In this document: piece by piece, positions 6,331-59,556 of the stretch | How the letters are laid out: each line of letters begins with the position of its first letter | How positions within the stretch are numbered: the first letter of the stretch is position 1 | Source: Apostichopus japonicus | Lineage: Eukaryota > Echinodermata > Holothuroidea > Aspidochirotida > Stichopodidae | Assembly: GCF_037975245.1 (NCBI RefSeq) | Contig: NC_092577.1 | Span: 21,388,898-21,452,897, forward strand | DNA: 64,000 nt | Reading direction: 5' to 3' | Position numbers and translations under genes: made by a program | Notes under the pieces: generated by a model | The model's input: only the letters and a program-made list of their open reading frames with translations | What the model was told of the DNA's origin: nothing | Databases searched by the model: none

Positions 6331-6379
6331 CAGCACTGCACACCACATCTACCAAACCACCATCATCAATTCCCTTGAA

Positions 6380-7830: not shown

Positions 7831-7839
7831 TATTTCCCA

Positions 7840-8260
7840 GGAGAATATCATACAATGGATTACGGAAACAAGAAGCTTCTACAATTCCCGAAAAAAATGG
7901 TGTATCAATCCGTAGTCTTGCTACGGGGATTGTTCTTATAGTACCGTCTGCTAATGCCAATGTTTCAGCTGCCCAGTAAATTGTTCGGGTAAAACCAATT
8001 CTCGACGTATAATCACACCATCACAACCACACTATCCCTAAGCACACTAACTACCCTTCCATTTACACGACCTTGTTCTACAGGAGCTTTCCGACAAAAC
8101 TTTACATCACATGCCGCACTCATCAATGGCAACGTATTTCCACACTTAAGGGTTACTTTTCCTTCATTTACGCAACAACTACCTAACTGACTATTTGGTG
8201 TAGATACCATCACACATGCAACTGTACCAATATGATCAGTAGGTTCATATTCGAGTTCAT
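7840..8260 (-). pseudogene. Retropepsin-type protease region, frameshifted at the active site
   Basis: The minus strand reads RVNGRVVSVLRDS and then loses the frame. Removing a duplicated TG dinucleotide at about 8033-8036 would restore the active-site triplet Asp-Ser-Gly with downstream GVIIRRELV. This is the expected place and motif for a retropepsin between gag and integrase. The frameshift lies within the active site. In the same region the sequence LYDILLGNIDGV (about 7825-7860) fits the protease-integrase junction. Confidence 0.65.
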
Positions 8261-9305
8261 GATTTGGCCATGTTCTTTCATGCGACACATGAGGAACATC
8301 TTTCTCAGTTACTGCGGCTGCTCTACTCTGTGGAGTGGTTCGAAACCAACATTCAGTTGCGGTGTGACCCAATTTGTGGCATATGTCACACTGACGTTGC
8401 CTGCTAGGTCGCCTTACGAAAGGAGGTTGGGCCCAGGCTTCAGGACCTACTCTACGTCTGTCAGGACGTTGGTTAAAACTATTACCTTGCGACGGTTTAT
8501 TTTGCTGGGAATGGGAGGGGTGCCCTTGAGAGGGTCTTCTTTCAGCGGCAGAATAGTTTTGAAATTCTCCCCCATGTGCATCTAAGTATTGTTCCGCCAT
8601 TTTAGTCAAACCGTTATTGATTTCGGAGCTCTTTGGAACATGCGTTAAGGAATTGTTCTCGTAACAGCAAATCGACCAATTTGGTATATTCTTTTGCCAC
8701 TTTAGCCATTTCAACCCAACGCGTTAAGAGGTTTTCAAGTCGTACTGCAAACTGGACGGCACCCTCCCCATTTTCTGGTCTAGCCCATCTGAATTTTTGA
8801 CGGAAACCATGTTCCGTTAGTTGATATTTCCTTAAGAGGGCATCTTTCAATTCGTCGTAATCAGTAGCCTTTGCTACGGGCAAGCGAGAATAAACTTCCA
8901 ATGCCTTTCCCTGTAGTAATGCACCAAGATTTATAGCCCACTCGCTACTACGAACCCAATTTTGTGCAGTGGCAAAACGCTGAAATCGTTCAATGTACGC
9001 ATCTAAATCATCAGTGTTATCATTGAACGGTGGAAGCTTGGGTGCAGGAGCCCTATTCAATAAATTCGGCCTACTGTCAAACTGTCTGTTACTCTTTCAA
9101 TCTTCTAAATTTGTCTTAAAAGTTCAAGTATTTCCTTTTCTTGTCTTTTCATTTCTATTTCATGGGCCCTCAAATCACGTGCAATTGCATCAGCGTCTTT
9201 CCTAGCCCTATCAGCTCATTCTCCCTCTTCCTTTACAAACTTATGTAAATCAGCTCCACTAAGCCCAAACGACGCGCTGAAGTCCGCCAGTATTTGAGTA
9301 TCCAT
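8260..9305 (-). pseudogene. Gypsy gag with one CCHC knuckle, broken
   Basis: A Met at 9305-9303 opens a frame rich in charged residues (coiled-coil-like, MKRQEKEILELLRQI) with two in-frame stops. The capsid-like region follows at 9060-8614 (FNDNTDDLDAYIERFQRFA, LLQGKALEVYSRLP, DALLRKYQLTEHGFRQKF), typical of gypsy Gag. After a frameshift at about 8650-8710 comes a basic tail with one zinc knuckle, CDICHKLGHTATEC, near 8350-8390. It would package element RNA. At least two stops and one frameshift disable it. Confidence 0.82.
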
Positions 9306-12296: not shown

Positions 12297-13280
12297 TAGT
12301 ACGCTAGGCGTAACGTTACCATTGTGTTCCGTGAAGATCAATTTCGACATCGCTGTCCGATCCCGCTTCCTCTTCGCTGGTCTCTGGTTCGAACATGTAG
12401 GGAAAAACTTCCCCACGATCGTCGACCATGTCCTCCATTTCCCTGCCTTCTTCGCTATCAATTGCTATCTGAATACTGTGTGTCAATGCCACAGGCAGCC
12501 ATTTCGCGATATGTATAAGTTATGCTGTGTATGCTGTGCTGTGTATATATGCGTACTACAGTGCGTGTATAGAAACTGTATGTGGTAGCAATAAGCAGTT
12601 CCATGCGACGATATCATGCACTTTCGTCTTCGTAAACAAATGACGTCATTTGTTTTCGACTTTCCCTGAACGAGTCAATGTAGCCGATTTTTTCGGAGTT
12701 TGTCGCTTGATAGGAAGAAAATGCAAAGAATTTATGAAAAAAAGATGTCATTAGATGTTTTCTTCGATCTCTTATGTATCAATTTGTGATTTTTCATGTT
12801 AATCCAAATCTTAACTTTCTTGTAACAGACTGGTGAAAAAGGTAATATTTTCGAGAAGTTGGAGATTTCTACATACCCAATGCACTGCGCAGAACATATA
12901 GAGTTTGCACTCCTCTGCGCTCCCCCGTGACGTCACTGAATCTATTACGTAATAGTACCTTTTTTTATACCCCTTTGGAGACGGAAAAAAATCGCGGTGT
13001 TGGGTTTTTCTTAATGTAAGAATTGTTAAGTTTAATATTATGTAAAGTCAAGTCTACGTCTCACTTGACCTTTAAACACTATGGTTTTGATATAACTGTT
13101 GCACGACGTATTTGTTACATCTGGAAAGAAATATGAAATTCCTAATTGTTTCACTGAACCTCTCTCTCATGTGAAATGGTTTCCTAGAGAAGACTTTGTG
13201 CTATGAAGAAATCTCATTTATGTACTCTTATAAAATATTTGATGTCAGTACCTGTTGTATAATATCCAGACAGAATTTTG
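12297..13280. other. Stretch without a recognised gene
   Basis: Unique-looking AT-rich DNA. Short open stretches at 12,217-12,588 overlap the end of the preceding TIR element and show no domain. Nothing else seen. Confidence 0.5.
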
Positions 13281-13868
13281 TGCTTTTTACGTGACCCGCC
13301 ATGCGGGATATAAAACGTCACGGCCAAACGGCACTACCGAACCATCCCATTCTGAAAAACGAAACTCAGGTCAAGCGAGCCAATAAAACATACGCCCGCC
13401 GACCTGCAGAGACAAAACGCCCAACCCCCCCCCCCTGAAACATTCAAAAAAACACAAAAGGACGACCAGCACGGAGCGAAACGAAAAACCCCTCCCCAGC
13501 ACACCACCGTCCAAAAAAGGCAGCCCCAGATAAACGGCGAAAATCACCTTCAATCTGAAGGCGAATGTCAGACTTCACCGCCTCCAGGACCGCCCGCCAA
13601 GTGGCAAATTTCCCCCTAAAAACCACATCACATCTATTCCGCCAAACATGTTTTTTCACAATAGAGCAAACAAAAATAATGCGATGCAAAACAGCAACCG
13701 AACAAACTGGAGGGTCTACCCCATATAAAATAAAGCCCTGCCCTACCGACCATGAACGGTCTCCCGTAACACGGTCGGTCCAGGTCTGGAACCACTCCCA
13801 TAAGTTAACTACAAAGCAACAATGCCAAAAAACATGAGCGGTACTCTCTAAGCTGTCACAGCCGGTCC
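13281..13868 (-). mobile_element. LINE copy D, 5'-truncated 3' end
   Basis: On the minus strand it matches copies B and C: the end of ORF2 (VFRGKFATWRAVLEAVKSDI at 13,560-13,630), then the 3' UTR and the terminal hairpin CCCGCATGGCGGG followed by TCACGTAAAAAGCA. About 588 bp. Homology with copy B stops at ccggtcc (13,868). A poly-C run at 13,427-13,436 lies in the 3' UTR. No clear target duplication was found. Confidence 0.85.
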
Positions 13869-14152
13869 ATAGTTAATACTACTTTGCATCTCATTTGGCA
13901 AGTGCAATGGGTATGTTGTCTCTATGCTTTTTATACAGTAACTGAACATACATGTCATATTAATCACTCACATATACAGGACACATTTAATAATACTATT
14001 CAATGAATTTCCACATTCCTCTTGAAGGTAAATTTTGCAGATAGGGAACTTTAAGTGATAAACAGATTGTTCACATTATTACAGTCTTTTCATACAATGT
14101 TTGGAAGTTCTTTTCAGTAAACTCTCACTGGAAGTACATATCAGTTATCTTA

Positions 14153-14198
14153 CCCAGTAAACATTTTGACGTCGGATCGACGTTGGGTTTGGGTCGCG
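14153..14198. repeat. Left terminal inverted repeat
   Basis: Starts CCCAGTAAACATTTTGACGT. Pairs with 31,165-31,210 in reverse complement; differences are TTGGG versus TCGGG and GGGT versus AGGT. Preceded by TA. Confidence 0.9.
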
Positions 14199-14204
14199 TG
14201 AAAT

Positions 14205-15605
14205 GGTCGGACCGACGTCTCCCACGTTTCCGTTTGCAAAGTGGGGCAACGTCGATTCGACGTCGATTCAGACGTCCAATATTCGTTGGTCCGACGTTTG
14301 GCCGACTCTTCGGTATACCGTTGAAACGACGTTCATTGGACGTCTTTCCAACAATTAATGTCGACGTCAATTCGACGTCGATGAAACCGTCCAATATTCG
14401 TTGATCCGACGTTTGGCCGACTCTTCGGTATACGTTGAAACGACGTTAACTGGACGTCTTCCCAACATTCAATGTCGACGTCGAAACGACGTCGATAAAA
14501 CCGTCCAATAATCGTCGGTCCGACGTTTGGCCGACTCTACGTTATACCGTTCAAACGACGTTCATTGCACGTCTTTCCAACATTTAATGTCGACGTCGAA
14601 TCGACGTCGATGAAACCGTCCAAAATTCGTTGGTCCGACCTTTGGCCGACTCTTTGGTATACCTTTCAAACGACGTTCATTTGACGTCTTTCCAACATTT
14701 AATGTCGACGTCGAATCGACGTCGATGAAACCGTCCAATATTCGTTGGTCCGACGTTTGGCCGACTCTTCGGTATACCGTTCAAACGACGTTTTTCCAAC
14801 ATTTAATGTCGACGTTGATTTGACGTCGATGAAACCGTCCAAAATTCGTTGGTCCGACGTTTGGCCGACTCTTCGGTATACCGTTCAAACGACGTTTTTC
14901 CAACATTTAATGTCGACGTTGATTTGACGTCGATGAAACCGTCCAAAATTCGTTGGTCCGACGTTTGGCCGACTCTTCGGTATACAGTTAAAACGACGTT
15001 CATTGGACGTCTTTCCAACAATTAATGTCGACGTCGATGAAACCGTCCAATAATCGTTGGTCCGACGTTTGGTCGACTCTTCGGTATAACGTTGAAACGA
15101 CGTTAACTGGACGTCTTCCCAACATTCAATGTCGACGTCGAAACGACGTCGATAAAACCGTCCAATAATCGTCGGTCCGACGTTTGGCCGACTCTACGTT
15201 ATACCGTTCAAACGACGTTCATTGCACGTCTTTCCAATATTTAATGTCGACGTCGAATCGACGTCGATGAAACCGTCCAAAATTCGTTGGTCCGACCTTT
15301 GGCCGACTCTTTGGTATACCTTTCAAACGACGTTCATTTGACGTCTTTCCAACATTTAATGTCGACGTCGAATCGACGTCGATGAAACCGTCCAATATTC
15401 GTTGGTCCGACGTTTGGCCGACTCTTCGGTATACCGTTGAAACGACGTTCATTTGACGTTTTTCCAACATTTAATGTCGACGTTGATTTCACGTCGATGA
15501 AACCGTCCATTATTCGTTGGTCCGACGTTTGGCCGACTCTTCGATATACCAAACGACGTTAAGTGGACGTCTTTGTAACACATCATTTTAACGTCGGATT
15601 GACTC
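14205..15605. repeat. Left subterminal tandem array, about 12 units of ~115 bp
   Basis: Units begin with cgttggtccgacgtttggcc at 14,284, 14,399, 14,513, 14,628, 14,743, 14,847, 14,951, 15,054, 15,170, 15,285, 15,400 and 15,515. Spacing is 114-116 bp except three 103-104 bp units that lack about 11 bp. The block 14,399-14,790 recurs at a distance of 657 bp, a higher-order duplication. Open frames here are by-products of the repeat. Confidence 0.95.
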
Positions 15606-18317
15606 TGGCTTGGTTTATAGTTTACTAACAAATTACACAATGTATGGTAAGTTTGTTTTAAATCGAAAAATGAAAAACATGAGTTGATTGAAATATTTCG
15701 TTTTAAAAGAAAACGGCCCTTTTATATTTGATTACAATAATATGATAAAGTCACAAGAAAAGTCTACTATAAATTTAATAGAGGTGAAATGCGCTACATA
15801 GCACAGACTATATGTTACTACAGCTGCATGTTTATTAGTTTCCAGTTAAAATGCAATAGAAGTTGTTGACTGTTGTTCCAAACTTGTCAACATAAACCGT
15901 TGTGGTAAAAAGGAGCGCTCTACATGTACATTGTCGTACGAGTTACACCCCACCGCCGATGAAATGCCATATGTTAAAGTCCCATTCAGAGTTTCCTCAT
16001 GAATTTCAGAAAACAAACTTCCGAATTAGATTCCAACGTTTCTTAACCTAAATACACTCTGACCAGGTGGGTTTTATGGAGAAAAGCTGTCGCAATCGAA
16101 AGAAAGAAAAAAAAAATTTTTCTGTCGTCCTTATGGCGGTAACGATTTACCGTAATATCACTGCAACCGCCTACGGTTCATTACACAAATGTAAAGAAAA
16201 TAGTCCATGCAGTCCTATTGGTATCGCATTTTACAAGTAGAATATGTTTGACACCGCTAGGTCACGGTACTAATCTCCCACCAAAATATGCCTTCTCGCA
16301 TTCACTACACTAGAGGTAGGGAAAATCCCGAAAACACTCGAGAAGTACAAAAAGGAAAATTACCAACAAAATAAAACAATGTAAAATATAAATATTGAAA
16401 GCCACGAGCATTTTCCCATAACAGCAATCCAAAACAAGTAGTGATTGCCTAGTCTGTAATACAACTGAAATTTCGAAATATATAATCTACAAGATGTAAG
16501 GTCATTAATCTCGTTGCACTTTTGACCTTCCCTTGGTTCCCACGATCCCTTAAAAAGAAAAACATAAGAAATTGCTTGACCCGCTATTTCAGACGTCTAG
16601 TCAATTCAGAAAAAAACAATAAAAAGATAAACAGCACGTGACGTTTCTTTCTCACTCTTGGTTGGTCCTTTCAATGACAGATTTGATGAATTAGGTAACA
16701 TTGAACCAATCAGTGACCAGATGCCCGAACATGAGTGAGCCCAATTGCGGAGTTGTTATTTCAGAGGCATGTCAGTAGGGAAAAGTTAGTCGAAACAATC
16801 GCTCTTAGCTAGTGATCGTTGTTTGCGGACGTACAGGCTATTTAAGTAAACATGGTTTCTTATCAGTATCTTGAAGTAACTTAACAACGCTAATTGGACT
16901 TTAATTTAGAGACGGGAGAGGTAATCTTATAATCAACGGAATATTTGACTCATTTACTTGAGCAAGGGCGAGAAATCGAGATACCAGTTACACCGAGCTC
17001 ACAAGGCGTCGTCACACTCGCAGCAGTAAACCACCTCATAACACTTGTTACGGATCGCCATTCCAGCCTAATAACTTTTTTTCCAATTAATACGAGAATA
17101 AACGCAATAATATAGATATCGTGCTACCAAAAACACGGAATGAGCAGTATCGATAGAGTTGATAGGTAAGTACATATTTATCCCATCAGTTGTTTAATCA
17201 TCATGTTACTCGTTCTCAGTTGCTTAGTCAATAACTGCAGAGTAGAAATAAGATACCGAATTGATCATGCCCTGGATAACACTACAGTCTGTACAGGAAG
17301 GGCATATGCCGTGGACCTATCAAGTATCAACCGATGTTTTCAATAGCAGTTGGTATATAGTTGCAGTACAATATTTGTATATACTATTTTTATTTGTAGC
17401 TTATTTGGCTAATGCTTGAATCCCAACACCCTCTAACTTAGATTAAAGTTCAGGCCAGGATTTCCTTTGTAAGAATTTTTTTTTTGTAAAGTCGGCCTGC
17501 GTATCGACCAGCATGTAGCAGTGCTAATTTTAAAGGTATGCAGTATTTCCGCGAAATATGCCAGAAAATTAAATATGGTCACCTTTGGTCATAATTCTTA
17601 AATTGTTTTTATTACCGCCTTCGAAGAAATTTACCCCACTGAGAAATTCTTTCATCTTGGGTGTTCATTAAGAAAATGTCCGAGAACAATTTGGAGAATA
17701 ACGACCTCCAGGAAAATACTTTTTGAAAATGTCTAGCAATTATAAAGTGCTATAATTTGGGGCCTATGCAGACTACTTTTAAACTGGGGGTGGTAACTTG
17801 ATAATAGTCACCAAAAATATGGTGGGATAAGAAAATTGCCAGAATGGCTTCTGGTCACTACCAATCTTATATAATAACTCACCATTTTGTATTTAAGCAC
17901 TCTTAATTTGTAAGAAAAAAGTAGCACCATCCTCTGGGAAAGGCACTGGAGGAGCCAGGAAGCAAACAGAATACCACCAGCATGTAGTTTATAGGTCATG
18001 CAGGCACTTTGGGCTGATATGAGGCTAAGGACTACTTTGAATTGTAATAAAAAATCTTTCACTAGGAGAATGGAATTGCATTTGATGCAAGGATGTAGAC
18101 CCTGCAAGATTTTTTACTGATTACTTTTACTGCATAGTCTTCAAAATGTGTTAGAAGACTATAATATAGCCATTACTATTTACAAGGCATGTTTAGTGAA
18201 AGGAACAGTTTAATGACAGTTCAAAAGTGTCACACTAAAGTTAAACAATGTGAAAGCAGTCTTGATATTGATAATGGAAAGATGATCTAGGCTTATGTTG
18301 AAGTTAAAGTATCGACT
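15606..18317. other. Transposon interior, left, no gene recognised
   Basis: 2.7 kb between the left array and the last exon of the DUF4806 gene. AT-rich, with no domain-bearing frame on either strand. It may hold the 3' UTR of the minus-strand genes. Confidence 0.5.
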
Positions 18318-21300
18318 TTAATCAAGCTGACAATCTGGCTGTTGTGCCTGCCTGTCCTTGCGGGCACCAGTCCGGTCTGCAGCATGTTTTAGCCATAATT
18401 TAATGACTGCTTCCACCTGTGACTGGGTTGCTGTTTTTGTCAAAGGGTTTCTTGAGATGGCCCCTAGGGACAATAGGAAAAAACGAAGAGCAATTATAAG
18501 TATAATCACATGAATAAACCAAGAGAAAATGTAATCTAATGACTGACCGCATGACTTTATTGATATTATGTTGTTTATTTCAGGCAAGTCTCATCCCAAA
18601 TGATTGGAGGGCATTGATGATACTTATCAACTTGGTCCAATTTTACTGCTCTGCTCAGCGCTTTGCAAAGATGAGTACATTATCTTATATGAATTACAGT
18701 CACACATTGCAGTCTGACAAAACCATTAAATCTACACAAAGTTGCTTGATGGTTAAAATATGGGCCTTGGCCTTTTGGGAAGATGTATACAGTGCATAAT
18801 GTTTGTGTGATGCATCATTGGAGCACTGTTAGTTTGTCACAGTATATATACCATTTGAACAACTGGGACGATTTTGTAATTATAGGCATTTGTATACTTA
18901 CTAAAAATCAAATCTTTCAGAAGAAGGGTAGAAAAGGCTTTCTTTTCGGCACTCCCCCTGCCTAACCAGTTGAATTCTGTGGCCAAGGCACTGCTCATTA
19001 GGAAGGATAAAATCCTTCTTACACTACTATCCAAGTTAGTCCCACCTATCATAGACAGCTTCTGGACCTATATAAGGAGGTGATGGCGAAAAAAGATGAA
19101 ATTTATTAAGGAACAAAGTTTATGTTATCCAGTTGTAATAAGTTATGAATTGTTTACTTGTTATTTACCACCACACTACTATTAGTATTACATTAGTTGT
19201 AATTAATTTATTTGCTAAAAATATGTATTTGGTAAACATTACTACAAGAAGTATAATTAAAAAGTAATATATTTCAGAATGTATGTAGTTAACAGAGATA
19301 CAATTTTTTCAAAAACATAATGCAAATATATCTCAGATAGAGGTATGACTTATGACAGGAGTGGGGTCACTGGGTGCATAAGTATCTAAGAGTTTGGCAA
19401 GATTGTTTAAAACTGTACGACTCCTACCACTCCCAGTTGAAGAAAAAAAAGTAGTGCAATTTTTAAAGCAATATGAAATTATAAGGCTCAAAGAGCAAAT
19501 TTTAAACTGTGCCATCTACACTTATAACTTGGGTTGAAATATGAGACTTATAGACCACATAGCATCATATGTCTATTTAATATGGCTGTGAAAAGGTTTT
19601 CATTAACTTTATATTACAAATTGATGGAGCACGAAATTACAGCAAGTTACATTTAGTCTAAAACTCAATCATAGAACGCTTACACTACTGGTTTCTTTAA
19701 AAACTTGCAATCAAAAACACACAAAAAACATTTCTTACCAGTTTTTTCCTTGATCCTGTGTCATTTTTAAGTTTTTCCTCCAAAGAAGTTATACCTTCAA
19801 GGGACTTTAGAGGAAATTCATTTAGCCAATCGTCTTCTTCACTCTCTGGTAGGACGTTTGCCTCAGTCAGTGTTTTTAGCAACTCCTTGTTGTGCTGAAC
19901 CTCCGCCTTAATCTCCGTCAGCATCGAGATTACCCTTTTTTCAAAATCTAATAAAAGTTGACAACAACAAAATAAACTTAGTTACATTCCTATAAACTCC
20001 ATGTGTCATAGTAAAACTGTGTTCCCTTAAAAATTATACTGTACATTAGGTCTTTCATTTTTTGTTGTTGCATATTTAGCATCAATTTAATAATAAATAA
20101 CAATTCACAAGAATATAAATAATATTAAATAGTAACAAATATTACTTCGTCTTCATACCTTAGCATTTTTTGTTTCGATGATAATCATAACATTTGCAAT
20201 CATGCGTGTGTGTGTGTGTGTGCGTGCGTTTGTGACGCCCAGCTTGTAAACACGATATCTCAAGAAGGGAAGCTTGGACAGTTCTCATATGTGGTACATA
20301 GGAGTACCTTATTGAGTACAAGAAGCCTATTGTTTTTGGTGTAGGTCAGAGGTCATTTAAGGTCACCAGGGGTCAAATAGTGATAAGCTTGTAAACATGA
20401 TATCTCAAGAAGCAAAGCTTGGATTGATTTCATATTTGGTATGTAGGTTGACCACATTAAGTACAAAAAGCCTATCGTTTTTGGTGGATGTCGAAGGTCA
20501 TTTAGGGTCACCAGGGGTCAACTTGTAAAAACCTTTTCATAATATATAGGTATCTCCCATCGTCCAGCCTATAAGTAGATGACATGGGCGATTCGCCTCA
20601 TAAGAATAGGAGAGCCTATTGACAATTGCAAATGATCTTACGGGCATCCGTAGATTTGAATCTGAACTCGCGACAATATCCCCATTGACGTAAGTGTGTC
20701 GCTAAAAGTCCTGAATTGCTATGTACATAGCTACATACCTGTGTGTGTGTAACAGTGTCTTCCAAGGCTTGCTTGCAGACCATAGATATATATAAAAGTG
20801 CTAGAGCTACTGCAACACTTGTCACTCATCCGTATGGATATTTTCCTAAAGTGTTCATGGATTTCGATGGAATAGTGCATTTGAATGGCGAAGCATGCCT
20901 TCTCTAGAAAATATTTGTAGATCATTGGTAGTTCTGGTTGGATGTAAGTTGCACAGGTACCACGAATTTCAAAACATTTCTTGGCCAGCTGCCAATGAGA
21001 AACTGGGTCACGCACCTGTGAACTTGAGATTTGTTTTCACTTCATGGAGTTGGCTGTAATGTTGGCCTAGTTTTTCTCAACTTGTGAAACTACCATTGAC
21101 AGGTTCCAACAAGGTTGATATTTTGGGACTAGTTGTGAATGGGGGTAAGGGATTGTTTCAAAACATAACAGTCATGTGATCCAATGTCAACAAAGGTCAA
21201 TCAGGGGTCAAAAACTAGTATTTTTGCAATAACTTGAGAACCAAATGTCCATCAAGGTTGGGAGTTACGCTATTGTAATATAATAGTCGACCTGCATTTG

Positions 21301-22899
21301 GGTGACCTTTGACCTCAGGTTCACCTCCAGTGACCTGTGTTAGCTTCTTTCAAGTTGATTCTTTGAAGTTTCGTGGGCATATTCCAATCTAAATTGTCCA
21401 TAAGTGGACTCCTCTGCAACCTTAATGTGCGAAGTTATTAGCGATTTGGTTTGGTTTGTAATACTTGGTGTGCGGATTCATAACATTGAGTACAAGAACC
21501 GTACTGTTTTTGATGGAGGTGTGTATAACCACGTACAGACTGACCTGTGTTAGCATGCCATAGTGTTATTGTAACAGCTAGTTCTGGTTATATACTAACA
21601 AGCAGAAGTCTAGTGCATTGAAGTCATCGAAACCTCAATGCATTTTGCATTCTGGTTTTAATTGAAACAATTCAAACATGTGTCAATTGCTTTAATGAAG
21701 CTGAATGTTCTGTAAACCAATAGAGCTAATGTACAATGCTTTATAAATAATTGAAAAGAGTTAAAAGAAAATTACCAGGGAAATGGAAAGAAGAGGCTGC
21801 ACTATTGTCCAAAGTTTGGTTGGGGAAGCAAGGTGGGGTTGGAGAGCGTGGTGGGGCAGGAGATAGAGCAAGCGGAGTTACTGGTGTTGAAGTTAATGGA
21901 AATGATGGTGGTCTGGGTCGCTTTGGTGAGGCAGGAAACTCCTCATCACTCGAGCTTTCAACCATATAACGTTGATTAGGTCTGCAATAAAAAAAAAATA
22001 AAAAAATTACCATAATACAATAATGATAACCGAAAATCTATCTTACTTTGACCACTTTTACGCTAACAAATCACCCTCCCACCCCAGTTGAAAAGAGAAA
22101 CTTGGTGATAATTATACTTTGGTGCTTCACTGCTTTGTATATATGTGTGACTCTATCAGTCTTTTTGCTGTGTTGGGACTTACTTTCGTTTTCTTCCTAT
22201 GGTTACTTCCTCATCTCCTGTCTGTAGGTCTGACTCATCTTCAGCCTGCCTTAGTTTGGAAACTGCCTTGTCATATGAATCTGTATGGAATAATATAAAA
22301 TATGCCCCATGTATTTGAATACCTTTACTTTGAATTTGTGAAGTTACATTTTTATTTTATTCCTTGGTAAATTGAAAAATATCAGGAAACAGTTGGATAA
22401 CCCAGCCAAAATGAGAAGGATAAACAAAGGGCATGAGACAGGGTGGGGGGGGGTCCTTATAGATTAGGTAACCACTGGACAGAGCACTTGTGAGTTCATA
22501 GCCCATCGTGGTGAAACAGTGCGTTCAATGGTAGTTACTGCATTAATTTATTTACTGTTCTCCAACATTTCATCTCAAACTTCTGGGCTGGGCTGTGTAG
22601 CATATTAGCAACAAGTATTAAAACCAGTACTTAGAAATGGGGGCAAATAGAGAGTATGAAGACACACCCTTCAATTATATTTAACATAATTTTTACTTAC
22701 TTGTTGCATAGAGTTTTCTTATTTTAAAAGCCTTCCAACTTGTCTCGGGCTCTGTGGTAGTCTTCAGAGCCTTTGCCAAACTTGCTGAAGATTTGAAGGG
22801 GGGCCACAAACAAGTACCCTCAGAAACCATCCATTTCTCATTGATGATGGCTATCTCCTTAGAGTCCGTAAACTCCACAATGTGATACAATGGGTCCAT
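18318..22899 (-). CDS. DUF4806-type protein, six exons, 338 aa, accessory gene of the transposon
   Basis: Exons (minus strand): 22,899-22,701; 22,280-22,184; 21,981-21,776; 19,947-19,739; 19,061-18,902; 18,463-18,318. Every intron has GT-AG ends (five donors read GTAAG or GTAAT) and all phases match, giving 1017 nt with one stop at the end. Exon 1 (residues 1-66) carries the YHIVEFTDS...W...LWPPF start typical of these proteins. Exon 3 is Ser/Pro-rich. Exon 4 begins with a predicted helix (FEKRVISMLTEIKAEVQ) and FPLKSLEGITSLEEKL. Exons 5-6 carry KLSMIGGTNLDSSVRRIL, NWLGRGSAEKKAF and VEAVIKLWLKHAADR, the DUF4806 core (about residues 212-318). The molecular function of DUF4806 is unknown to me. 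Its place inside the transposon, 143 bp after the transposase stop, suggests a DNA-binding partner. Exon calls are mine; family assignment is from memory. Confidence 0.85.
20241..20525. repeat. Two-copy 145-bp tandem repeat with GGTCA motifs
   Basis: gcttgtaaaca(c/t)gatatctcaagaag begins at 20,242 and again at 20,387; each copy ends in ggtcaccaggggtcaa. It lies in intron 3 of the DUF4806 gene, after a (TG)n run at 20,206-20,222. Related GGTCA-rich sequence is at 21,180-21,340. Confidence 0.8.
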
Positions 22900-23042
22900 G
22901 CTAAGATTGAGTAATATAATTTTTCTAATTTATGTTAAAGTGATGATCATATATGTAAGTAAATGAAGTGTTAAAATGTATTTAACATTAAACTTAAACT
23001 AACAGTAACTGGCCTCAAGTCTCCTTAATATAAACTTCCTCT

Positions 23043-25124
23043 TTAATGTAGGATAGGCATAGCAATAAACCAATTTCTATGCGGTAAAAGTGCATATTTT
23101 TTGAAAATTTCCCTTGAATGTGATACCTGTAGATTTTCACTTATACTGTCAACTTGTAAAATTCCTATACACATTGATTCACAAGGATAGCTAAAATAAT
23201 TTTCCTTGTGAGTGAATGATCGATAAACCACATACAAATCATCATTGGTAACAAAAAAGTTTTGCACTAGGCACACATCATTCCCTATTTGAACACAATT
23301 GTCCCCAGTGCAAAGAGTTATATGGACATTCAAATCTTTGTCATAAAAGTAGGCATACTGTGACATAGCTAAATGTCCTTCTGGCACTGGCCCATTTGAA
23401 TGTTCTTGTTTGAGGATAGTGCACTCATTGTTCTTCATGCTTTTCTGAATTTCCCCCTTTCTCAACAGATGCCCAACTACTTGCCGCAGTGGCAGTGATG
23501 GCTTTTTCACCATTTTCTTCAATGTGCCCAAATAACTTTCAAATGGAAATGCAGAAACATTATCTAGTGGACCATATTTACGTGCATCATCAGCAAGATG
23601 AAGCAAACAATGTACATTGTACACTACCATTTCCTTGCCATACAATTTGGAGAAATGTGCAACAAACAGTTTTAATAATTCTTCAGAATAATCAATCAAT
23701 GATGATTGGTTACAAAGCCTTGGTGACAACAGAATTTGAACTGCAACGGAAAGCAGCATGAAGTTGTGGTAAAGGTTCACTGGTATTTGGCTAGAAAGGA
23801 CTAATGGACCAGTGTAGACTAAGAATTGACGGAACTCCGTAGCCTTCCATCTATCAACTTCTCGGAGTGATCTAGGTTTTCTTGAAAACTCTCTTGGCAT
23901 GAACTCTCTAAGTGAAATCATCTTCTCAGAAATTGCATTGATCACTCTGGTTGGCATTCTAGTTTTGAGCGGACCTTTCATCCACAAACCCAGCAGTTTA
24001 CGCGTAACACCCAAACACACCAGATGCATATAATCTAATGGAAATTGGGAAACTAATCCTATAGAAGTAGATGAAAATGGAGATTGTTCAAGGTGGTGAT
24101 CTTCGTCAAGCATTTGTTGGAAACTTTCGTCAGTTCTTAAACTATCTGCACTTTCTTTGTACACCATTTTTCCCATCCAAGTTCCAGTTTGTATGCACCG
24201 ATCACAGCCTTTGTAGGAGGAATGCCCTTTTACACGCTTTATTAAGGCACGAGCCGGGGCATCACAAATAACAGCAGATATTGAAAATTGGTATTTTGCC
24301 CCACAATGCTCAATACCATGTTCTTCGAGACTTTTAACCTCGTCAATTAATGGTTTTAAGAATTCATTAACTGGAGATGGTTTCGACATTCCAGAAAATA
24401 TTCCAATTGGAAATGGTGTACTGTCAAAAATTTGATCAGTGATCCCCAAAATTGGCCAGAACTGCATATTTGAACTGCGAAACAGGGGTAGACCATCAAT
24501 GTTAATTTTAATTGAGATAGATTCTTTACATGGCTGTGATAACTGCATTTTTGATTTAATGTAGTTAGCAATGCCAAAGTGATAGTACTTGCCCCCTGCT
24601 ATGTTTTCAAAAGAAATGTCTTTAATGGGCTTCAGAAGTGATCTTGGATCCTTTGGCAAATCTATGTGGTATGGTTTTAAAATGTTTAACAAACTAGATA
24701 CTGCTGTTTGTGATATGTTGTTTGATGTAGCCCATTCCCCCAACTGATCAGAGAGGCTCATTTCATCAACATCTGACTGGCTACTACAACATGGTGAAAG
24801 CTCTTCAAATTCACTTTCAGAATTACTGCTAGGCCTGTGGGTAACTCCAGGATTGTTTAATGTATTGTTGAAGAGGTGTTTGCTTTCAGAAGGCCTAGTG
24901 CTAAGCCTAACATTGTCATGGCCTGTTTGTGATACTGTGGGGCTAGAAGTAAAATTTAGTGCAGTATTTGTGACTGGAATGTCTAAGTTGCTGGGCTCTT
25001 GAACCAGTTTAGGAACTTTACTCTTATCTATTTTGAGATAGGGGTGGTGCTTTAGTTGAAATTGTACATTACGTCTTGTTTTCCAATACGATATTGGTTT
25101 TACATAAGCCATAGCAAAGAACAA
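23043..25124 (-). CDS. Tnp2-like (CMC/EnSpm-type) transposase, 693 aa
   Basis: Single open frame. The first Met may not be used; MAYVKPISYW (Met 5) is equally likely, and a further upstream exon cannot be excluded. Residues 1-130 are Ser-rich and low in structure. From about 200 the tnp2 core: SIKINIDGLPLFRSSN with Asp210, ICDAPAR with Asp288, a CDRC pair at 307-310, LDYMHLVCLGV with Asp364 and His367, VYNVHCLLHLADDARKYGPL with His505, His509 and Asp512, and FPFESYLG with Glu529. These are the blocks conserved in tnp2 transposases; which acids form the catalytic DDE triad is inferred. No stop or frameshift. It lies just upstream of the DUF4806 gene on the same strand. Expected role: binding the ends and cutting the element in the nucleus. 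Confidence 0.87.
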   Translation of the reverse strand: MFFAMAYVKPISYWKTRRNVQFQLKHHPYLKIDKSKVPKLVQEPSNLDIPVTNTALNFTSSPTVSQTGHDNVRLSTRPSESKHLFNNTLNNPGVTHRPSSNSESEFEELSPCCSSQSDVDEMSLSDQLGEWATSNNISQTAVSSLLNILKPYHIDLPKDPRSLLKPIKDISFENIAGGKYYHFGIANYIKSKMQLSQPCKESISIKINIDGLPLFRSSNMQFWPILGITDQIFDSTPFPIGIFSGMSKPSPVNEFLKPLIDEVKSLEEHGIEHCGAKYQFSISAVICDAPARALIKRVKGHSSYKGCDRCIQTGTWMGKMVYKESADSLRTDESFQQMLDEDHHLEQSPFSSTSIGLVSQFPLDYMHLVCLGVTRKLLGLWMKGPLKTRMPTRVINAISEKMISLREFMPREFSRKPRSLREVDRWKATEFRQFLVYTGPLVLSSQIPVNLYHNFMLLSVAVQILLSPRLCNQSSLIDYSEELLKLFVAHFSKLYGKEMVVYNVHCLLHLADDARKYGPLDNVSAFPFESYLGTLKKMVKKPSLPLRQVVGHLLRKGEIQKSMKNNECTILKQEHSNGPVPEGHLAMSQYAYFYDKDLNVHITLCTGDNCVQIGNDVCLVQNFFVTNDDLYVVYRSFTHKENYFSYPCESMCIGILQVDSISENLQVSHSREIFKKYALLPHRNWFIAMPILH

Positions 25125-28100
25125 ATGTTGAAAATTCGAGACTTAAGCTAGCTACGGGCAGTTGTGCTCAACTGGCCTAAAATATCCTCTTAGTCTCAGA
25201 GGGAACTATATTGAGTATTCAAGACAGGTGTGGGGATTTTGTCTTTCCTAAACTGTTATTGTTAAATTAATATCCCAGTGTCCCTGGGCATTCTCTTCTT
25301 TGGGATTGTGAACTAGCCTTTGGTCTAGGATAGTATCGAATATGGTAAAAAACACTTTTGCTGCCGTTTTTGGTAATGTTTAAGAATACGATATAGGAGG
25401 GGGGGGGATCCTAGCTTGGGGCAGTTTGAAACTGGGAGTGGGACGAAAATTGTAGCAACCCCTGGGCCTAAGCTCAATTATTTACCTTTATTGTTATACC
25501 GTTCGAAGAATAGACCTAGCCTTTGTTTGAAAAAATAAAATTGACCCCCTACGTCTAGGCCTTGTCCGACTTCATAAAGAGGAACAAAATGAGGACGTTA
25601 TCATTTCAGTTTCTGCTATACTCCAGTATAGGGTATAACTTAATTCGAGGAATCAACAAAAAACAGACAAGGCCTAGGCTATAACATCCTACCGCCTGTG
25701 CAGTATATACAACAGCATACACTAGGTTGGCCCATAAATAAATCTGAGCCTATAGGCTATACATAGTATAGTATAACAATATAAGTATACAGAGCAATGT
25801 CCTTATTTCCACAAATTATATCGAATCCTTGGCAGTTTTGTTTTTTTGAGACCGCTGCCACTAGTTTTGCATTTATTATATAAAAACCTTGTACTCCGAA
25901 AAATCTCGTAACCGCAAATCCCTGTTTGATGCTGATCAATTTGTTATAGCTATAACGGCCGGTTAATGTATGTTAGACGTGGAATGTTTGTCATATATAC
26001 AATGTATAATCCATGCCTCGCAAGCTGCGAGATCAAACACGTGCATGTAAAACGTGTATGAGTACAGCAACCAGCCGGTCATTGTGTAGGAGAGTGATTA
26101 TTTATGTTAATATTTACGCGGGAAACCTTCAATGTGAGGGCGTGTGTTTGCACTAAAGGGAATATATGACTTATCTAACGTGTGGGATTCATATCAGTTA
26201 TACGAGCAAGGGATGATACACGTAGCATATTTGGTCCCCGTTTCCGGAAACTGAATAAATTAAGAATTAACTAAAGATCTGATACTGTAGTCTATTGTAA
26301 TATGGAAAGTTGCACTTGTGAAATATTGTCGAATGAAACCTTTTGTTTGACTTTTTGCTTGCACACATTTTGCAAGTCGAAGAGGCACTCCCCCCATGTA
26401 ATCGCAATACTCCCCCCCCCCCCGTCAAGGAAAATTTAATTTGCCTCAAGTAATCAACAGTAACAGCTCTACAGAATCGTGCTATTAAGGCTTAGATCTT
26501 TATCAAATTTTAGTGTGATGTAGCTCACACTATTTGCACAAGAAATATTTGGAAGTAATTTATTCTAAATTAGTTTGGATCCTTTTGTCAACAGCCTTTA
26601 ATTCACCGAATGTCCGAACGTTATATGTAGGCTTTATTTTGCATGTTTACAGTTTTGTAATGACGTACTTTGTGCTAAGAAAATGTAATCTTTTGTATTT
26701 TCAATTGTCCGAATGGTTGACTCATTAAAAGACCGTTTTGAACGAGAAGTCAATTTTGTTTCTATTTCTTAAGCCAGGTTCGGCATTTGCACGATCGTAT
26801 TTAAGAATAAAATACGGTAGTGTTTTATAACCGCGAAAATAGATCGCATTCTGGCGCAGGAGCTATGTTTGATCTACCTAAGTTAGCAAATAACCAGTAG
26901 CTATAAAGGAGGTCCCACACTAGAAGTTTCAGCCTCGGCAACACTTAAAAGATGGGCCTGACCTATACTAAAGCATTAAAAACTTGACCCTTTGTTTATT
27001 TGCACGTGATTATTGGGCCTATATGACCAATTATCATGGGTCATGGCCAATCATACATTACATGACCCAGCCTATACATGAGATTTAATGCAGAGTTTTG
27101 GGGAGGGTGGGGGTAGTCTGCTGTGCTGTGAAAATATAAAACGGTATGAAAGAGTCGTACTGTTTTTATGTTGTTTACATTAATTCCAATTTAAAATTGA
27201 GTTGCCGTGGCAACAGCCCTAGCGCCCACACCAAATTAACAAACAGATTGTGACCGGAAATGGCGGATGAAACTCCCTATAAATGAGTGTTTCTGTGTGT
27301 GTGTTGGGGGGGGGCACCACATGGCTAAACCATGGCCCAGAGTCTACCTAGAATTAAACCAATGGTATAAGCTTTTTGACAGACATGTCAAGAAAGCGTC
27401 GGTACCCGACAGAACCACGATTTTTGGCAAGAAGTTGAGTTATTCTATAATGTGTGAGACATGTCCCCTTATGACCACCGTTAAAGTGTCGTGTTGCACA
27501 ATTACAACTCGTAAATATTAAAAAACTGAACAAGCAACAACACTGAATTCCACTAAGGAGCAACCAAAATTCAACGCAATTATATAATGCTATGTTCGCG
27601 AGATTAGTATAGTGCAATTCGTCAAATCATTGAAGAGTAATTTTCTTTTTAATTTCCCGACTTTCTTTGAAAAAGTTTGGCACTCTTCAAATTACAGAAA
27701 ATTAATCCGTTGACGAGATCCGTCGGTTGTACGGTCAAAACGGCAATTTCTAGAATCACGTTACCATCTCAACATTTTTCAGATATTTGTAGTTTTGCCA
27801 AAGTTGGTAACCTGCCAATTTGCAGAAACTTGAAGGAGATACTTTATCTCGTCAACATTTTCCGATTTCTGTCATTTTTGAGATAGTAGCAACTCAGTGT
27901 GCGACTCAGCAAATTACAGAAAATTAATAAATTAACAACATTCAATACCAAGTTTGTGAATTTTATGACGTTATCGTCTCGTCAACTCGACAATTTACCG
28001 TTGTTTGTGGTTTAGAAAAGTCGGTAACTGTTCAATGCAATGTCCCTTCTGCGCTACCATAGTCTTGGACAGCGCATAGAAAGAAACTGACATTCCTCTT

Positions 28101-28790
28101 TCACGTTCGCTCAGCAGAAGATGAAAGCGCTGCCGACGCACATTTGTCTACGGAAGTGTTATAAAAGCGTAGTCGGGGATGTGTTTGTGAGGATATGGGA
28201 TGGGGTATAACGAGGTATGCTCTAGTGCATCAAACGATTACTTGATTCATTGTTATATGGAGATGCCATGACCGAATCAATTAGTTAAGTTAAACGTTAC
28301 CTCAATATTACTGCACCAGATATGGTTCTTTCTTTCACTCGCAGTGCAAGTGTTATGGAAGAAAACGAGTGTAGATTTGCAATATACTTGTTAACATGTT
28401 TAACATTGCTCTATAGCTTCATTTTACTGAATATATGTCTCCTTTTATTGGATTCATTTAAGTTTTACTTACCTTAATAATGGCATGATAAGCGAGAAGT
28501 TGTTGTATATACTGACGGTACTTTCACAGCTTTCGTCTGAGTCGCATGATTGCCAGTGTTAAGTTGGATGTCACGGATACACGTATTTCGAAATGTTTAT
28601 TTTACGTTATATTAATAAACTTATTAAACGTCGAAGGTATACGTATTCACGTAAGCGCCCGCTGTGGCAAAATTGATTCGACACCGATCCAACGAACTGT
28701 TTATGATATAGTATATTTCTAGATAGTCATTGGAGCGTATAAAGAGGGAAGCTTATATATTTCTACCGCCAATGCCGTTCCAACACCGAA
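25125..28790. other. Transposon interior, right, no gene recognised
   Basis: 3.6 kb upstream of the transposase on its strand, so it should hold the promoter. No protein domain seen. At 27,670-28,040 a degenerate repeat of about 110 bp occurs some three times (attacagaaaattaat at 27,691 and 27,912, a weaker copy between). A poly-C run lies at 26,411-26,420 and a poly-G run at 27,304-27,313. Confidence 0.5.
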
Positions 28791-28799
28791 CTAGTTCAG

Positions 28800-30990
28800 C
28801 CGACGTCGATCCAACGAATCGTTTATGATTAGTCTATTTTGAATTGTTGTTTTAACGTCGTTTAATATGGCGTCTCTTCTCGACACTTCATTCGACGTCG
28901 ATCCAACCAACTATATCAATGATTAAGTCGGAGAGACATTTACCGTGCGACGTCACCTGTCCGTAGTTGAACGGACGTCGATCCAACGAACCGCTTATGA
29001 TTAGTCTGTTCTTTCTGGTCGTTTGAGCGTCGATGGGACGTCCTCAGTGCGACGTCGCCTGTCCGTTGTTGAACGAACGTCATTCTAACGAACCGTTTAT
29101 GATTAGTCTATTCTTTGTGGTCGTTTGAGCGTCGATGGGACGTTCTCAGTGCGACGTCGCCTGTCCGTAGTTGAGCGGACGTAGATCTAACGAACCGTTT
29201 ATGATTAGTCTATTCTTTCTGGTCGTTTGAGCGTCGATGGGACGTTCTCAGTGCGACGTCGCCTGTCCGTAGTTGAGCGGACGTGGATCCAGCGAACCGT
29301 TTATGATTAATCTATTCTGACTGGTCGTTTGAGCGTCGGAGGGACGTTTTCAGTGCGACGTCGCCTGTCCGTAGTTAAACCGACGTCGATACAACGAACC
29401 GTTTATGATTAGTCTATTCTGACTGGTCGTTTGAGCGTCGGAGGGACGTTTTCAGTGCGACGTCGCCTGTCCGTAGTTAAACCGACGTCGATCCAACGAA
29501 CCGTTTATGATTAGTCTATTCTTTCTGGTCGTTTGAGCGTCGGAGGGACGTTTTCATTGCGACGTCGCCTGTCCGTAGTTAAACCGACGTCGATCCAACG
29601 AACCGTTTATGATTAGTCTATTCTGACTGGTCGTTTGAGCGTCGGAGGGACGTTTTCAGTGCGACGTCGCCTGTCCGTAGTTAAACCGACGTCGATACAA
29701 CGAACCGTTTATGATTAGTCTATTCTGTCTGGTCGTTTGAGCGTCGATGGGACGTTCTCAATGCGACGTCGCCTGTCCGTAGTTAAACCGACGTCGATCC
29801 AACGAACCGTTTATGGCTAATCTATTCTTTCTGGTCGCTTGAGCGTCGGAGGGACGTTTTCAGTGCGACGTCGCCTGTCCGTAGTTAAACCGACGTCGAT
29901 CCAACGAACCGTTTATGATTAGTCTATTCTGACTGGTCGTTTGAGCGTCGGAGGGACGTTTTCAGTGCGACGTCGCCTGTCCGTAGTTAAACCGACGTCG
30001 ATCCAACGAACCGTTTATGATTAGTCTATTCTGACTGGTCGTTTGAGCGTCGGAGGGACGTTTTCAGTGCGACGTCGCCTGTCCGTAGTTAAACCGACGT
30101 CGATCCAACGAACCGTTTATGATTAGTCTTTTCTTTCTGGTCGTTTGAGCGTCGGAGGGACGTTTTCATTGCGACGTCGCCTGTCCGTTGTTAAACCGAC
30201 GTCGATCCAACGAACCGTTTATGATTAGTCTATTCTTTCTGGTCGTTTGAGCGTCGGAGGGACGTTTTCAGTGCGACGTCGCCTGTCCGTAGTTGAACCG
30301 ACGTCGATCCAACGAACCGTTTATGATTAGTCTATTCTTTCTGGTCGTTTGAGCGTCGATGGGACGTTCTCAATGCGACGTCGCCTGTCCGTAGTTGAGC
30401 GGACGTCGATCCAACGAACCGTTTATGACTAATCTATTCTGACTGGTCGTTTGAGCGTCGGAGGGACGTTTTCAGTGCGACGTCGCCTGTCCGTAGTTAA
30501 ACCGACGTCGATCCAACGAACCGTTTATGATTAATCTATTCTGACTGGTCGTTTGAGCGTCGGAGGGACGTTTTCAGTGCGACGTCGCCTGTCCGTAGTT
30601 AAACCGACGTCGATACAACGAACCGTTTATGATTAGTCTATTCTGACTGGTCGTTTGAGCGTCGGAGGGACGTTTTCAGTGCGACGTCGCCTGTCCGTAG
30701 TTAAACCGACGTCGATACAACGAACCGTTTATGATTAGTCTATTCTGACTGGTCGTTTGAGCGTCGGAGGGACGTTTTCATTGCGACGTCTCCTGTCCGT
30801 AGTTGAACCGACGTCGATACAACGAACCGTTTATGATTAGTCTATTCTGACTGGTCGTTTGAGCGTCGGAGGGACGTTCTCATTGCGACGTCGCCTGTCC
30901 GTAGTTCATCCGACGTCGATCCAACGAACCTTTTATTATAGGTCTATTATAATAGGTCATTTCGGCGTCGGATGGACCATTGAAACGCGA
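28800..30990. repeat. Right subterminal tandem array, 20 units of exactly 102 bp
   Basis: The anchor cgtcgcctgtccgtag occurs at 28,951 and then every 102 bp to 30,889 (19 intervals, no length change). A diverged outer unit lies at 28,800-28,930 and the unit decays after 30,910. Each unit holds ccgacgtcgatccaacgaacc, ggtcgtttgagcgtcg and gggacgtt blocks. Two main unit types (cggagggacgttttca and cgatgggacgttctca) are interspersed. Confidence 0.96.
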
Positions 30991-31164
30991 CGTATATTAA
31001 AGGGCTGTCATCCGACGTCGGAAAGACTACCTTTATATAACTACGATATTAACAAACGTCCATCCGCCGTCGTTAGGACGTCTAAAATTGAAAGGATTTA
31101 TTTGTGACGTCAATCCGACGTCTGAACTACTACTTATGTTGGACACCGACGTTTAACCGACCAT

Positions 31165-31210
31165 CTGGACCTAAACCCGACGTCGATCCGACGTCAAAAT
31201 GTTTACTGGG
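31165..31210. repeat. Right terminal inverted repeat
   Basis: Ends ...ACGTCAAAATGTTTACTGGG followed by TA. Reverse complement of the left end at 14,153-14,198. Confidence 0.9.
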
Positions 31211-31212
31211 TA

Positions 31213-31700: not shown

Positions 31701-33860
31701 CTGGTCTTTGAATGAATATAACGTTGAACATCAATCGCAAATATTAGGTAAGTTCGTATTTCGCTTACAATCATAAATATAATACTTCATGTGAAGTATA
31801 AGAAAATGATATGGGTGACTATATCCATTTCCGAACCCGAATACAAAAATCGTTTTGAAAAGAAGAACTTGGTTTAAAAACCGATTCTCTACGTGTAATA
31901 TGAAAGACCCAGTAAAATGACAGTCCCAGTAAAATGAGTCCCAAAATAGATGCTCGATGTTCTCAGTTTCTCTGTTGCAGAAGGAACAAACCTCTATCAT
32001 TTCTACCCATCAACGCTAAAGTTTATTTCAGCAACTCCACTTCTCTCTAGCAGTCGGAACTTTTCATAAACGATGGAAATACGCTTTAAAGATATACTGA
32101 GAGATATACGGCTAGCTCTATCTTGTGCTGTTCATAACATCAGTGCTATGGCAACCTGACCTTTTCCACAACTGGGGAATTGCAAGTATTAAACCCCAGT
32201 AAAAGGTATATCAGCATTAAAAACCTATTTCAACCTTACAAAAGTTAACGGCTTATTATGCTCATGAAACAGGTTACTAAGATAAATAATATTTCTATCC
32301 ATTAAAATGTCATTCATAACAAGTTTGTTGTCGATACGAATATGAGAATTGTTCCAAATGACTTGGTTACCTAAATTCTGTTGGAGTAGAGAATGAAATA
32401 TCACATCAAGCATAGATTATCTTACGAATGAAAGAATTTCTAATACTATATAGATATCATTCTTAGAACAGTTACAATGAAAAATAAACTGTTTCCCAAA
32501 CGGCTTCAAATACATATCCAAAACCTTTTCCAAGTAACGTTTATATCATATGTATACCGCACAATCCAGGTACACTTTAAACTATTTATAACACTGTGTG
32601 GTTGGGAGAGTGTGATGCATTACTAAGTTTCTCGGCCTTTTGGTTAAGATCATGTGAAGTATCTGATCCTTTTCGAGGGAATGGTGATGCACACCGGACG
32701 ATGATCACACAGTGACAGTCCCGATGCAAGGGGACTGGGGCTGAGAGCGGATCAGTCGTTTAATAGTTTGGTTTTCGTGCCCAGGTTCTTTCCTGTGCGA
32801 GTTTTCCTTAACAAATTTTTTTGTATAAAGCTCATGATTTGTGTAACTTTTAGTCCTCCGTTGCCAATAGTATTAATCATGACCAGCCTTTACTTTATCG
32901 GGGTCTACCACCCATATAAAGTCCAAAATAATTCTTTCTAAATCCTTTACGAAACTATTCGGTCGTTTTGACAATGATATTACGCCCTATTGGGGTCGAA
33001 TCTCTAGATGACCATATTCTCAAAGTATTCTTAAGTCTAGAAAGTTTTATTTCATAATTCAGCCGGAAAACAGATCATTGCCATCACCCGTAAAGAGATC
33101 CCAAGCATCTGAACTGGTCCATGCGTAATAGTAAAGTCATATACTGCAGCTGGATTATGATTGCTATATGGGCCCTGCGGAAAAAGACTATACTTGGACA
33201 TATTCATAGACAAGGCGGAAGCTTCTTTTAACTGCTTAATAAAACGAATCATATCCGTAATCGTGGTAACACTGCCATAAAGAAAATGTGTTACTTCTGT
33301 GTTACTTATTCTAATACCCTTAATTATTTCATTATTCTGTACTTGTATGGCAAATACCTCGGCCGCCAAGATAATTAAATATGGGCTTAATGGGGATCCC
33401 TGACGGACCTCTCGTTGAAGTGGAGAGAAACCCGTCCAATAACCAGTATTAAAAATACAACTATGACAATTACTATAAAAAAAATCAATCCACTTGTTAA
33501 AACTACTACCAAAGTTGAAATATTAAAGAGTTGTTTCAACGAACGACCATTGTAACTTATCAAAGGCCTTTTTAAAATCTACAAGAAACAAAAACCCTGG
33601 AATTTCATGATAAGAGCAATACTCTATTCAGTTTTAGACAAATGTAATGCTTTCCCCAATAAATATATTTCCCCCCCCCCCAAAAAAACGGTATGCTCAG
33701 GGCCAATGGTATTATGGAGAACGGATTTTAATCTAGAAGCTATCGCTCTCGAGCCAATTTTATAGTCAATGCTCAGGATGGAAAAAGGCAGGACCCTTAT
33801 CAGATTTCAAAACTAATGTCACAATGCTCTTGAATGCTTCGCCGCCAAACTCCCATTATC
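31700..33860 (-). pseudogene. Degenerate L1/Tx1-like LINE, RT and C-terminal part
   Basis: Minus strand, many stops and frameshifts. RT blocks are visible in order: ASRLKSVLHNTIGPEH near 33,720 (RT motif 1-2), LVDFKKAFDKLQWSF near 33,565, VRQGSPLSPYLIILAAEVFA near 33,360-33,410, and SNTEVTHFLY near 33,280, where the catalytic YxDD is lost. WNNSHIRIDNK at about 32,340 and a zinc-binding CSFCNRETENIEHLFW tail at 31,945-31,990 match the C-terminal region of L1/Tx1 ORF2. It is a different family from copies A-G. The 5' half is absent; the gypsy LTR starts 28 bp after its last recognisable block. An insert with a U2 snRNA head splits it at about 32,628. Confidence 0.8.
32628..32830 (+). ncRNA. U2 snRNA 5'-end-like sequence (SINE head or chimeric pseudogene)
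   Basis: TTCTCGGCCTTTTGG (32,629 on), then TAAGATCATGTGAAGTATCTG, matches the first ~40 nt of U2 snRNA apart from about five changes. One of these alters the branch-site pairing segment GTAGTA to GAAGTA, so it cannot be an ordinary functional U2. After position 32,665 the similarity stops and an unrelated body of about 160 bp follows, with a possible stem AGTCCC/GGGACT at 32,715-32,735. It lies inside a LINE on the opposite strand. End at 32,830 is approximate. Confidence 0.6.
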
Positions 33861-53690: not shown

Positions 53691-53755
53691 GTCACAGACA
53701 CACACACACGCCAACCTGACTGCATAGGTTCCTTTTGCTAAAGCAAGGAACCAAA

Positions 53756-58904: not shown

Positions 58905-59556
<652 letters not shown>

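Follow-up and report, generated by a model that had tools for sequence, protein, structure and literature searches.

A transposon family of the sea cucumber Apostichopus japonicus that joins a tnp2-type transposase to a DUF4806 gene

A 64,000-nucleotide stretch of the genome of the sea cucumber Apostichopus japonicus (contig NC_092577.1, positions 21,388,898 to 21,452,897; hereafter the window) carries a 17-kb unit that belongs to a real transposon family with many dispersed copies. The unit contains two genes, one for a tnp2-type transposase and one for a protein with the domain of unknown function DUF4806. Its interpretation as a two-gene transposon was put forward in an earlier reading of the window's letters (the original prediction), and our survey of the genome supports that interpretation. 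We consider it likely, with a probability of roughly 0.7, that this is a cut-and-paste DNA transposon of autonomous type, placed in the animal TRC branch of the CACTA (EnSpm) superfamily, which carries both genes in one transcription unit and moves by the mechanism proposed below.

The outermost 43 bases at either end of the unit, 14153-14195 and 31168-31210, are terminal inverted repeats (TIRs) that agree at 41 positions, as had been claimed. We searched the assembly that contains the window (671.6 Mb, 35 contigs) for the first 31 bases of the TIR with at most three mismatches, which gave 47 matches, against none for the reversed pattern used as a control. Sorted by position, these ends resolve into 12 long pairs of 16.0-22.7 kb (the window's included), six short pairs of 1.77-1.88 kb and 11 single ends. 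The long copies lie in 12 different places, and every one of them combines sequence of the transposase with DUF4806 exons 2-7, all in identical order and strand, and also has DUF4806 exon 1; the expectation of further copies with both genes between the same ends was borne out. Eleven of the 12 have the transposase at full length, and copy C4b matches it only from base 546 of 2070. Intact frames are found for both genes in six long copies, for the transposase in eight and for the DUF4806 gene in nine. A perfect 2-bp target site duplication (TSD) flanks 11 of the 12 (AT, TA, TC, TA, AC, TA, AC, AA, TT, TC and TA), and the remaining copy, C8, has the flanks GC and AT without a matching TSD. The TA duplication of the original prediction is correct for the window copy and fails as a rule for the family; insertion specific to TA is ruled out, since the TSD sequence varies between copies.

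The six short pairs are gene-less derivatives, each made of both ends (the first 315-317 and the last 383-485 bases of the element) plus element positions 12983-14060, a 1.08-kb segment of intron 1 common to all six. Four of them have a TSD. Three of these four have common flanks and may be one insertion that was later duplicated, and the two pairs that lack a TSD have common flanks with each other. Five of the six derivatives thus form two flank-sharing groups, which suggests that larger repeats carry them. When the flanks of the short copy s7 are joined with a single AG, the resulting 240 bases find 1,544 first-look candidates in the genome. Of these, 40 were scored, and all 40 match over the full length or close to it, with 97-98% identity; judged by their sequence, these places are empty sites within a common repeat. 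Empty sites had been anticipated with a single TA, and the site found here is AG. The long copy C4a is inserted in a tandem array of 18-bp units that continues across its joined flanks, which is weaker evidence for an empty site because the repeat units resemble each other.

The DUF4806 gene appears to wrap around the transposase. In the window it is intact, every intron is GT-AG, and its product matches Pfam DUF4806 (PF16064) with E 4.6e-11 and 43.3 bits (cut-off 25). The original prediction gave this gene six exons; we count seven coding exons, the additional one being a 14-base exon 1 that sits 3.4 kb upstream of the transposase. The public A. japonicus protein P0121, which is letter for letter the seven-exon product of copy C2, has the N-terminus MPLLSMDPLY. 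The entire minus strand of the window offers a single stretch that could encode MPLL and then run through AG into a GT donor (ATGCCATTATTAAG then GTAAGT, at 28486-28473), and splicing this exon to exon 2 (22900) produces exactly MPLLSMDPLY. A gene that starts only at the exon-2 ATG was rejected, since P0121 begins with five residues, MPLLS, that come from an exon further upstream. The exon-1 ATG and GT donor are kept in 12 of 12 copies, where the sole variable coding site is a silent third position. With exon 1 placed here, intron 1 encloses the entire transposase open reading frame (ORF), an arrangement given by a gene model, and the parallel with plant En/Spm that had been drawn is closer than it first seemed. 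The public proteins P0121 and P0123 bear the names 'isoform X1' and 'isoform X2'. Two splice forms would be produced from a shared transcription unit. A whole-genome search with the PF16064 family returned no matches, as it did for all 14 controls (0/14), the domain being split across exons.

The transposase ORF, 25112-23043 on the minus strand, is free of interruptions over its 689 amino acids, as described originally. By Pfam, its match to Transposase_21/tnp2 reaches E 0.073 and 12.7 bits, below the cut-off of 28.6, and DUF4218 reaches E 1.1e-6 and 29 bits (cut-off 27); the tnp2 label rests on motifs, relatives and fold. D206, D284, C303-C306 and H501-H505 are invariant over 84 aligned sequences, the window's among them, and E525 is conserved in at least 90%. 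In a by-eye comparison with the available text of PMC1636069, the window's LDYMHLVCLG fits the motif [LVI]-D-x-[LM]-H-x3-L-G of animal elements. The predicted core superposes on RAG1 and Transib in a fold comparison of the model. A profile search of Protein Data Bank (PDB) sequences did not find RAG1 or Transib, and the PDB sequence searches gave one and three matches, none of them a transposase or a BEN domain. A Transib/RAG-type class, considered from the fold, was set aside, as motifs and ends favour CACTA/TRC. The C-terminus may hold a BAH-like domain, a match that appears in the VIA fold list and is absent among the 50 Foldseek matches listed. Viral-contig searches with the transposase and with its alignment found 7 and 112 pattern-matched stretches, and a genome-contig search found 130, with no relative in any of these sets. 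Eight intact transposase copies give a ratio of non-synonymous to synonymous differences (pN/pS) of 0.29 among themselves, and nine intact copies of the DUF4806 gene one of 0.27, values that are supportive only, because the copies are related and were picked as intact, and that suggest both proteins are more conserved than their own silent sites.

The subterminal arrays of the original prediction are present at both ends and are rich in the palindrome GACGTC, with 28 occurrences in the left end and 46 in the right, a single one in the 13-kb interior and 17 over the remaining 47 kb of the window. The observed/expected ratio of CpG is 2.35 and 1.99 in the element ends, against 0.61 and 0.72 elsewhere. 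Each array unit has three (left) or two (right) GACGTC, against 0.31 and 0.21 in shuffles; the longest word common to both units, CGACGTCGAT, is equalled by 27 of 300 shuffled pairs. Over the 12 long copies the outer quarters hold 12-61 and 6-32 GACGTC and the middle half 0-3. Five of the short derivatives keep one or two array units per side, and s7 somewhat more. As for a protein that could bind such repeats, BEN DNA-binding domains are the fold matches ranked 1-4 (VIA) for a low-confidence structure model of the DUF4806 protein, which points to a probable DNA-binding protein with a possible BEN-like domain.

In the mechanism we propose, transcription would start between the right array and exon 1. 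Splicing of exon 1 to exon 2 would yield the DUF4806 protein, with a role like that of Spm TnpA, and a form that retains the intron-1 region would yield the transposase, with a role like that of TnpD. The DUF4806 protein, with its predicted coiled coil and BEN-like domain, would bind the CpG-rich GACGTC/CGACGTCG palindromes in both arrays and bring the two element ends together. It may also steer the element's own promoter, possibly by CpG methylation (compare BANP and BEND3), and perhaps prefers unmethylated CpG. The transposase would cut the CCC/GGG ends via its RAG1/Transib-like DDE site, and insertion would occur with a 2-bp stagger. Given the RAG1/Transib-like core of the transposase and its possible BAH-like end, it is conceivable that one element combines end recognition, CpG density and chromatin reading.

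The partnership of the two genes extends beyond the window's family. Our genome searches score the best candidates only, and the locus counts are lower bounds: at least 75 matches to the transposase merge to at least 54 loci, and at least 118 matches to P0121 fall at at least 42 loci. At 38 of the 42 DUF4806-like loci listed there is a same-strand tnp2 match within 6 kb upstream, mostly 50-400 bases away, where chance would give about 0.0003 per locus; a DUF4806 match is present at 38 of the 54 tnp2 loci listed. The original prediction had allowed that DUF4806 genes might lie at random relative to tnp2 genes, and in this one genome they do not. The window element's family or its decayed relatives account for 16 of the 38 paired loci, and the other 22 belong to other tnp2 families with an identity of only 39-55%. 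At two of these 22, which were examined, the DUF4806 exons are in the same order, to the last exon. A perfect pairing rule is contradicted by four DUF4806-like loci listed without a tnp2 partner and by 16 tnp2 loci without DUF4806, of which some are short pieces and several have 33-36% identity. The partnerless DUF4806-like matches (C12:21035057, C19:1317382, C3:8860458 and C17:19197323) may be decayed copies or host-captured genes. The listed matches to tnp2 are commonest on contig C17, most of them at about 15-25 Mb, and the window itself lies at about 21.4 Mb on C17.

These pairing counts come from one genome, and the evidence from another species consists of protein records of the sea cucumber Holothuria leucospilota. 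There, one 60,200,511-bp contig carries both HOLleu_13728, a gene model in which a transposase continues into N-terminal exons of DUF4806, and HOLleu_13730, a DUF4806 protein; another DUF4806 protein, HOLleu_37882, is from a different contig. The HOLleu_13730 model (P0122) starts with an apparent end of a long interspersed nuclear element (LINE), which by eye resembles an ORF at window positions 13444-13872; this LINE-like start is probably a retroelement in an intron.

Several animals have DUF4806 genes annotated as ordinary genes, and this would suit a reading of the unit as host DNA, in which a domesticated transposase and a DUF4806 gene came by chance to lie between two short elements. Such an origin is exceedingly improbable and is refuted by the family itself: the same ends enclose both genes at 12 separate places, and a 2-bp TSD flanks 11 of these copies. 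Empty sites were found as well. The recurrence of both ends with both genes in all long copies equally answers the concern, raised with the original prediction, that the TIRs belong to two unrelated short elements.

Once the unit is taken as a transposon, the role of its second protein can be read in other ways. DUF4806 could be a passenger: cargo that is retained for what it does to the host or to silencing, and that is dispensable at the end synapse. It might, for instance, be a chromatin regulator by which the element stays active, as with VANC of Arabidopsis VANDAL. We regard this as unlikely: the pairing is tight at 22 loci that belong to other tnp2 families, the exon order is the same at the two of them that were examined, and the transposase lies within intron 1, all of which fits a core partner better. 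The protein could also act as a regulator that represses or activates the element's promoter, similar to the Spm Suppressor, with a transposase that pairs the ends unaided. The right array does adjoin the stretch upstream of exon 1 where the promoter is presumed to lie. However, the left array, distant from that region, contains this palindrome too, and units from both arrays are retained in the short copies that lack the genes, so we give a purely regulatory role a low probability too. A DUF4806 protein that pairs the element's ends as a core partner of the transposase remains the reading we prefer.

This reading invites a broader one, which we advance tentatively and at somewhat less than even odds: in animal CACTA transposons DUF4806 would at root be the partner protein that corresponds to TnpA, most animal DUF4806 'genes' (in Hydra, molluscs, arthropods and fish) would be transposon genes or taken from them, and BEN-like binding would serve end pairing and CpG-methylation sensing. 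For animal CACTA elements, the sea cucumber unit itself supplies a second protein that has a name and a predicted DNA-binding role open to test, as well as an Spm-like plan. It also offers a likely source for a widespread domain of unknown function, and the enriched DUF4806 'gene families' in reported genomes may be transposon counts.

Table 1. Features of the window's element (window coordinates) and its short gene-less derivatives (contig coordinates)
Feature	Position	Strand	Description	Method
Left TSD copy	14151..14152		2 bp, TA	
Left TIR	14153..14195	+	starts CCCAGTAAACATTTTGACGTCGGATCGACGT	
Left array	14249..15574	+	115-bp unit x 11.9, GACGTC-rich	Tandem Repeats Finder
Exon 7	18318..18463	-	with stop codon	
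Exon 6	18902..19067	-	DUF4806 domain core	
Exon 5	19739..19947	-	long helix and start of DUF4806 domain	
Exon 4	21776..21981	-	low-confidence linker in model	
Exon 3	22184..22280	-		
Exon 2	22701..22900	-	conserved N-terminal module VEFTD...	
Intron 1	22901..28472	-	5,572 bases, includes whole transposase ORF	public gene model
Transposase ORF	23043..25112	-	689 aa; D206 D284 E525, C(2)C, H(3)H; RAG1/Transib-like core; possible BAH-like C-terminal domain	
Exon 1	28473..28486	-	ATGCCATTATTAAG then GTAAGT	
Right array	28927..30977	+	102-bp unit x 20.1, GACGTC-rich, directly upstream of exon 1	Tandem Repeats Finder
Right TIR	31168..31210	-		
Right TSD copy	31211..31212		2 bp, TA	
Short derivative	C7:18589102-18590981		gene-less	
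Short derivative	C17:20058554-20060331		gene-less	
Short derivative	C17:23862651-23864435		gene-less	
Short derivative	C16:21479724-21481505		gene-less	
Short derivative	C17:16300307-16302071		gene-less	
Short derivative	C16:43420398-43422206		gene-less	

Elsewhere in the window, ORFs on both sides of the element (1221-2453, 5738-8723, 33052-33522, 36570-39845 and 53692-55890) are what we take, by eye, to be retroelement pieces: zinc-knuckle gag-like, reverse transcriptase and integrase ORFs. A 650-base AT-rich tandem repeat at 58904-59556 contains long spurious reading frames on both strands.

Judged by its CCC ends (CCCAGTAAAC), 2-bp TSD and motifs, among them [LVI]-D-x-[LM]-H-x3-L-G, the element is an animal TRC-type CACTA transposon. 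The available text of DeMarco et al. 2006 (PMC1636069) describes animal TRC elements with CCC ends, a 2-bp TSD, a tnp2 domain, several splice forms and a second ORF in tandem. SmTRC1 of Schistosoma mansoni and the Aedes and Tribolium TRCs share with the sea cucumber element the ends, the TSD, the tnp2-type transposase and the motif, and the Aedes end CCCAGTCAAC differs from CCCAGTAAAC at one of 10 bases (same text). They also differ: SmTRC1 is about 4.5 kb, whereas the sea cucumber copies measure 16-23 kb and have long subterminal arrays, and the protein parts of SmTRC1 outside the transposase domain are reportedly not detectably conserved (same text), whereas the sea cucumber element has a DUF4806/BEN-like second protein. 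The TRC class has been known since 2006, so that only this partner and its arrangement look new, and to that extent the original prediction of an undescribed animal system survives. The literature on DUF4806, as far as its text was available, showed no link to a transposon. A literature search on CACTA/EnSpm/SmTRC1 transposases with BEN, TnpA, BAH or Apostichopus, with Repbase and most subscription papers outside its scope, gave no such pairing among the matches listed. The DUF4806-tnp2 pairing is likely, though not proven, to be new.

Among other systems, the TRC element Spongebob_HMa (EnSpm-4N1_HM) of Hydra also has a 2-bp TSD, with the ends CCCAGCCAACATTGAC; it differs in being a 5.8-kb consensus without a readable transposase, and no DUF4806 gene is reported for it in the available text (PMC4298943). 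DUF4806 domains number 69 in one Hydra species and 54 in another, according to the portion of PMC7642931 at hand. Transib and RAG1-RAG2 are similar in the predicted transposase core and different in that the sea cucumber element has a 2-bp TSD and no RAG2-like partner was seen in it. Maize En/Spm and other plant CACTA elements (Tam1, Tgmt*) have CACTA ends and a 3-bp TSD, unlike the CCC ends and 2-bp TSD of the sea cucumber, and their second protein is TnpA/TNP1, not a DUF4806/BEN-like one. In plan they are close: subterminal repeats, a second DNA-binding protein (predicted here) and gene-less derivatives are common to both (PMC2613891, available text). In maize Spm, the transcript of the second gene has the transposase ORF in its intron-1 region (PMC2613891, available text), and at the level of the gene model the transposase of the sea cucumber element would occupy the same place.
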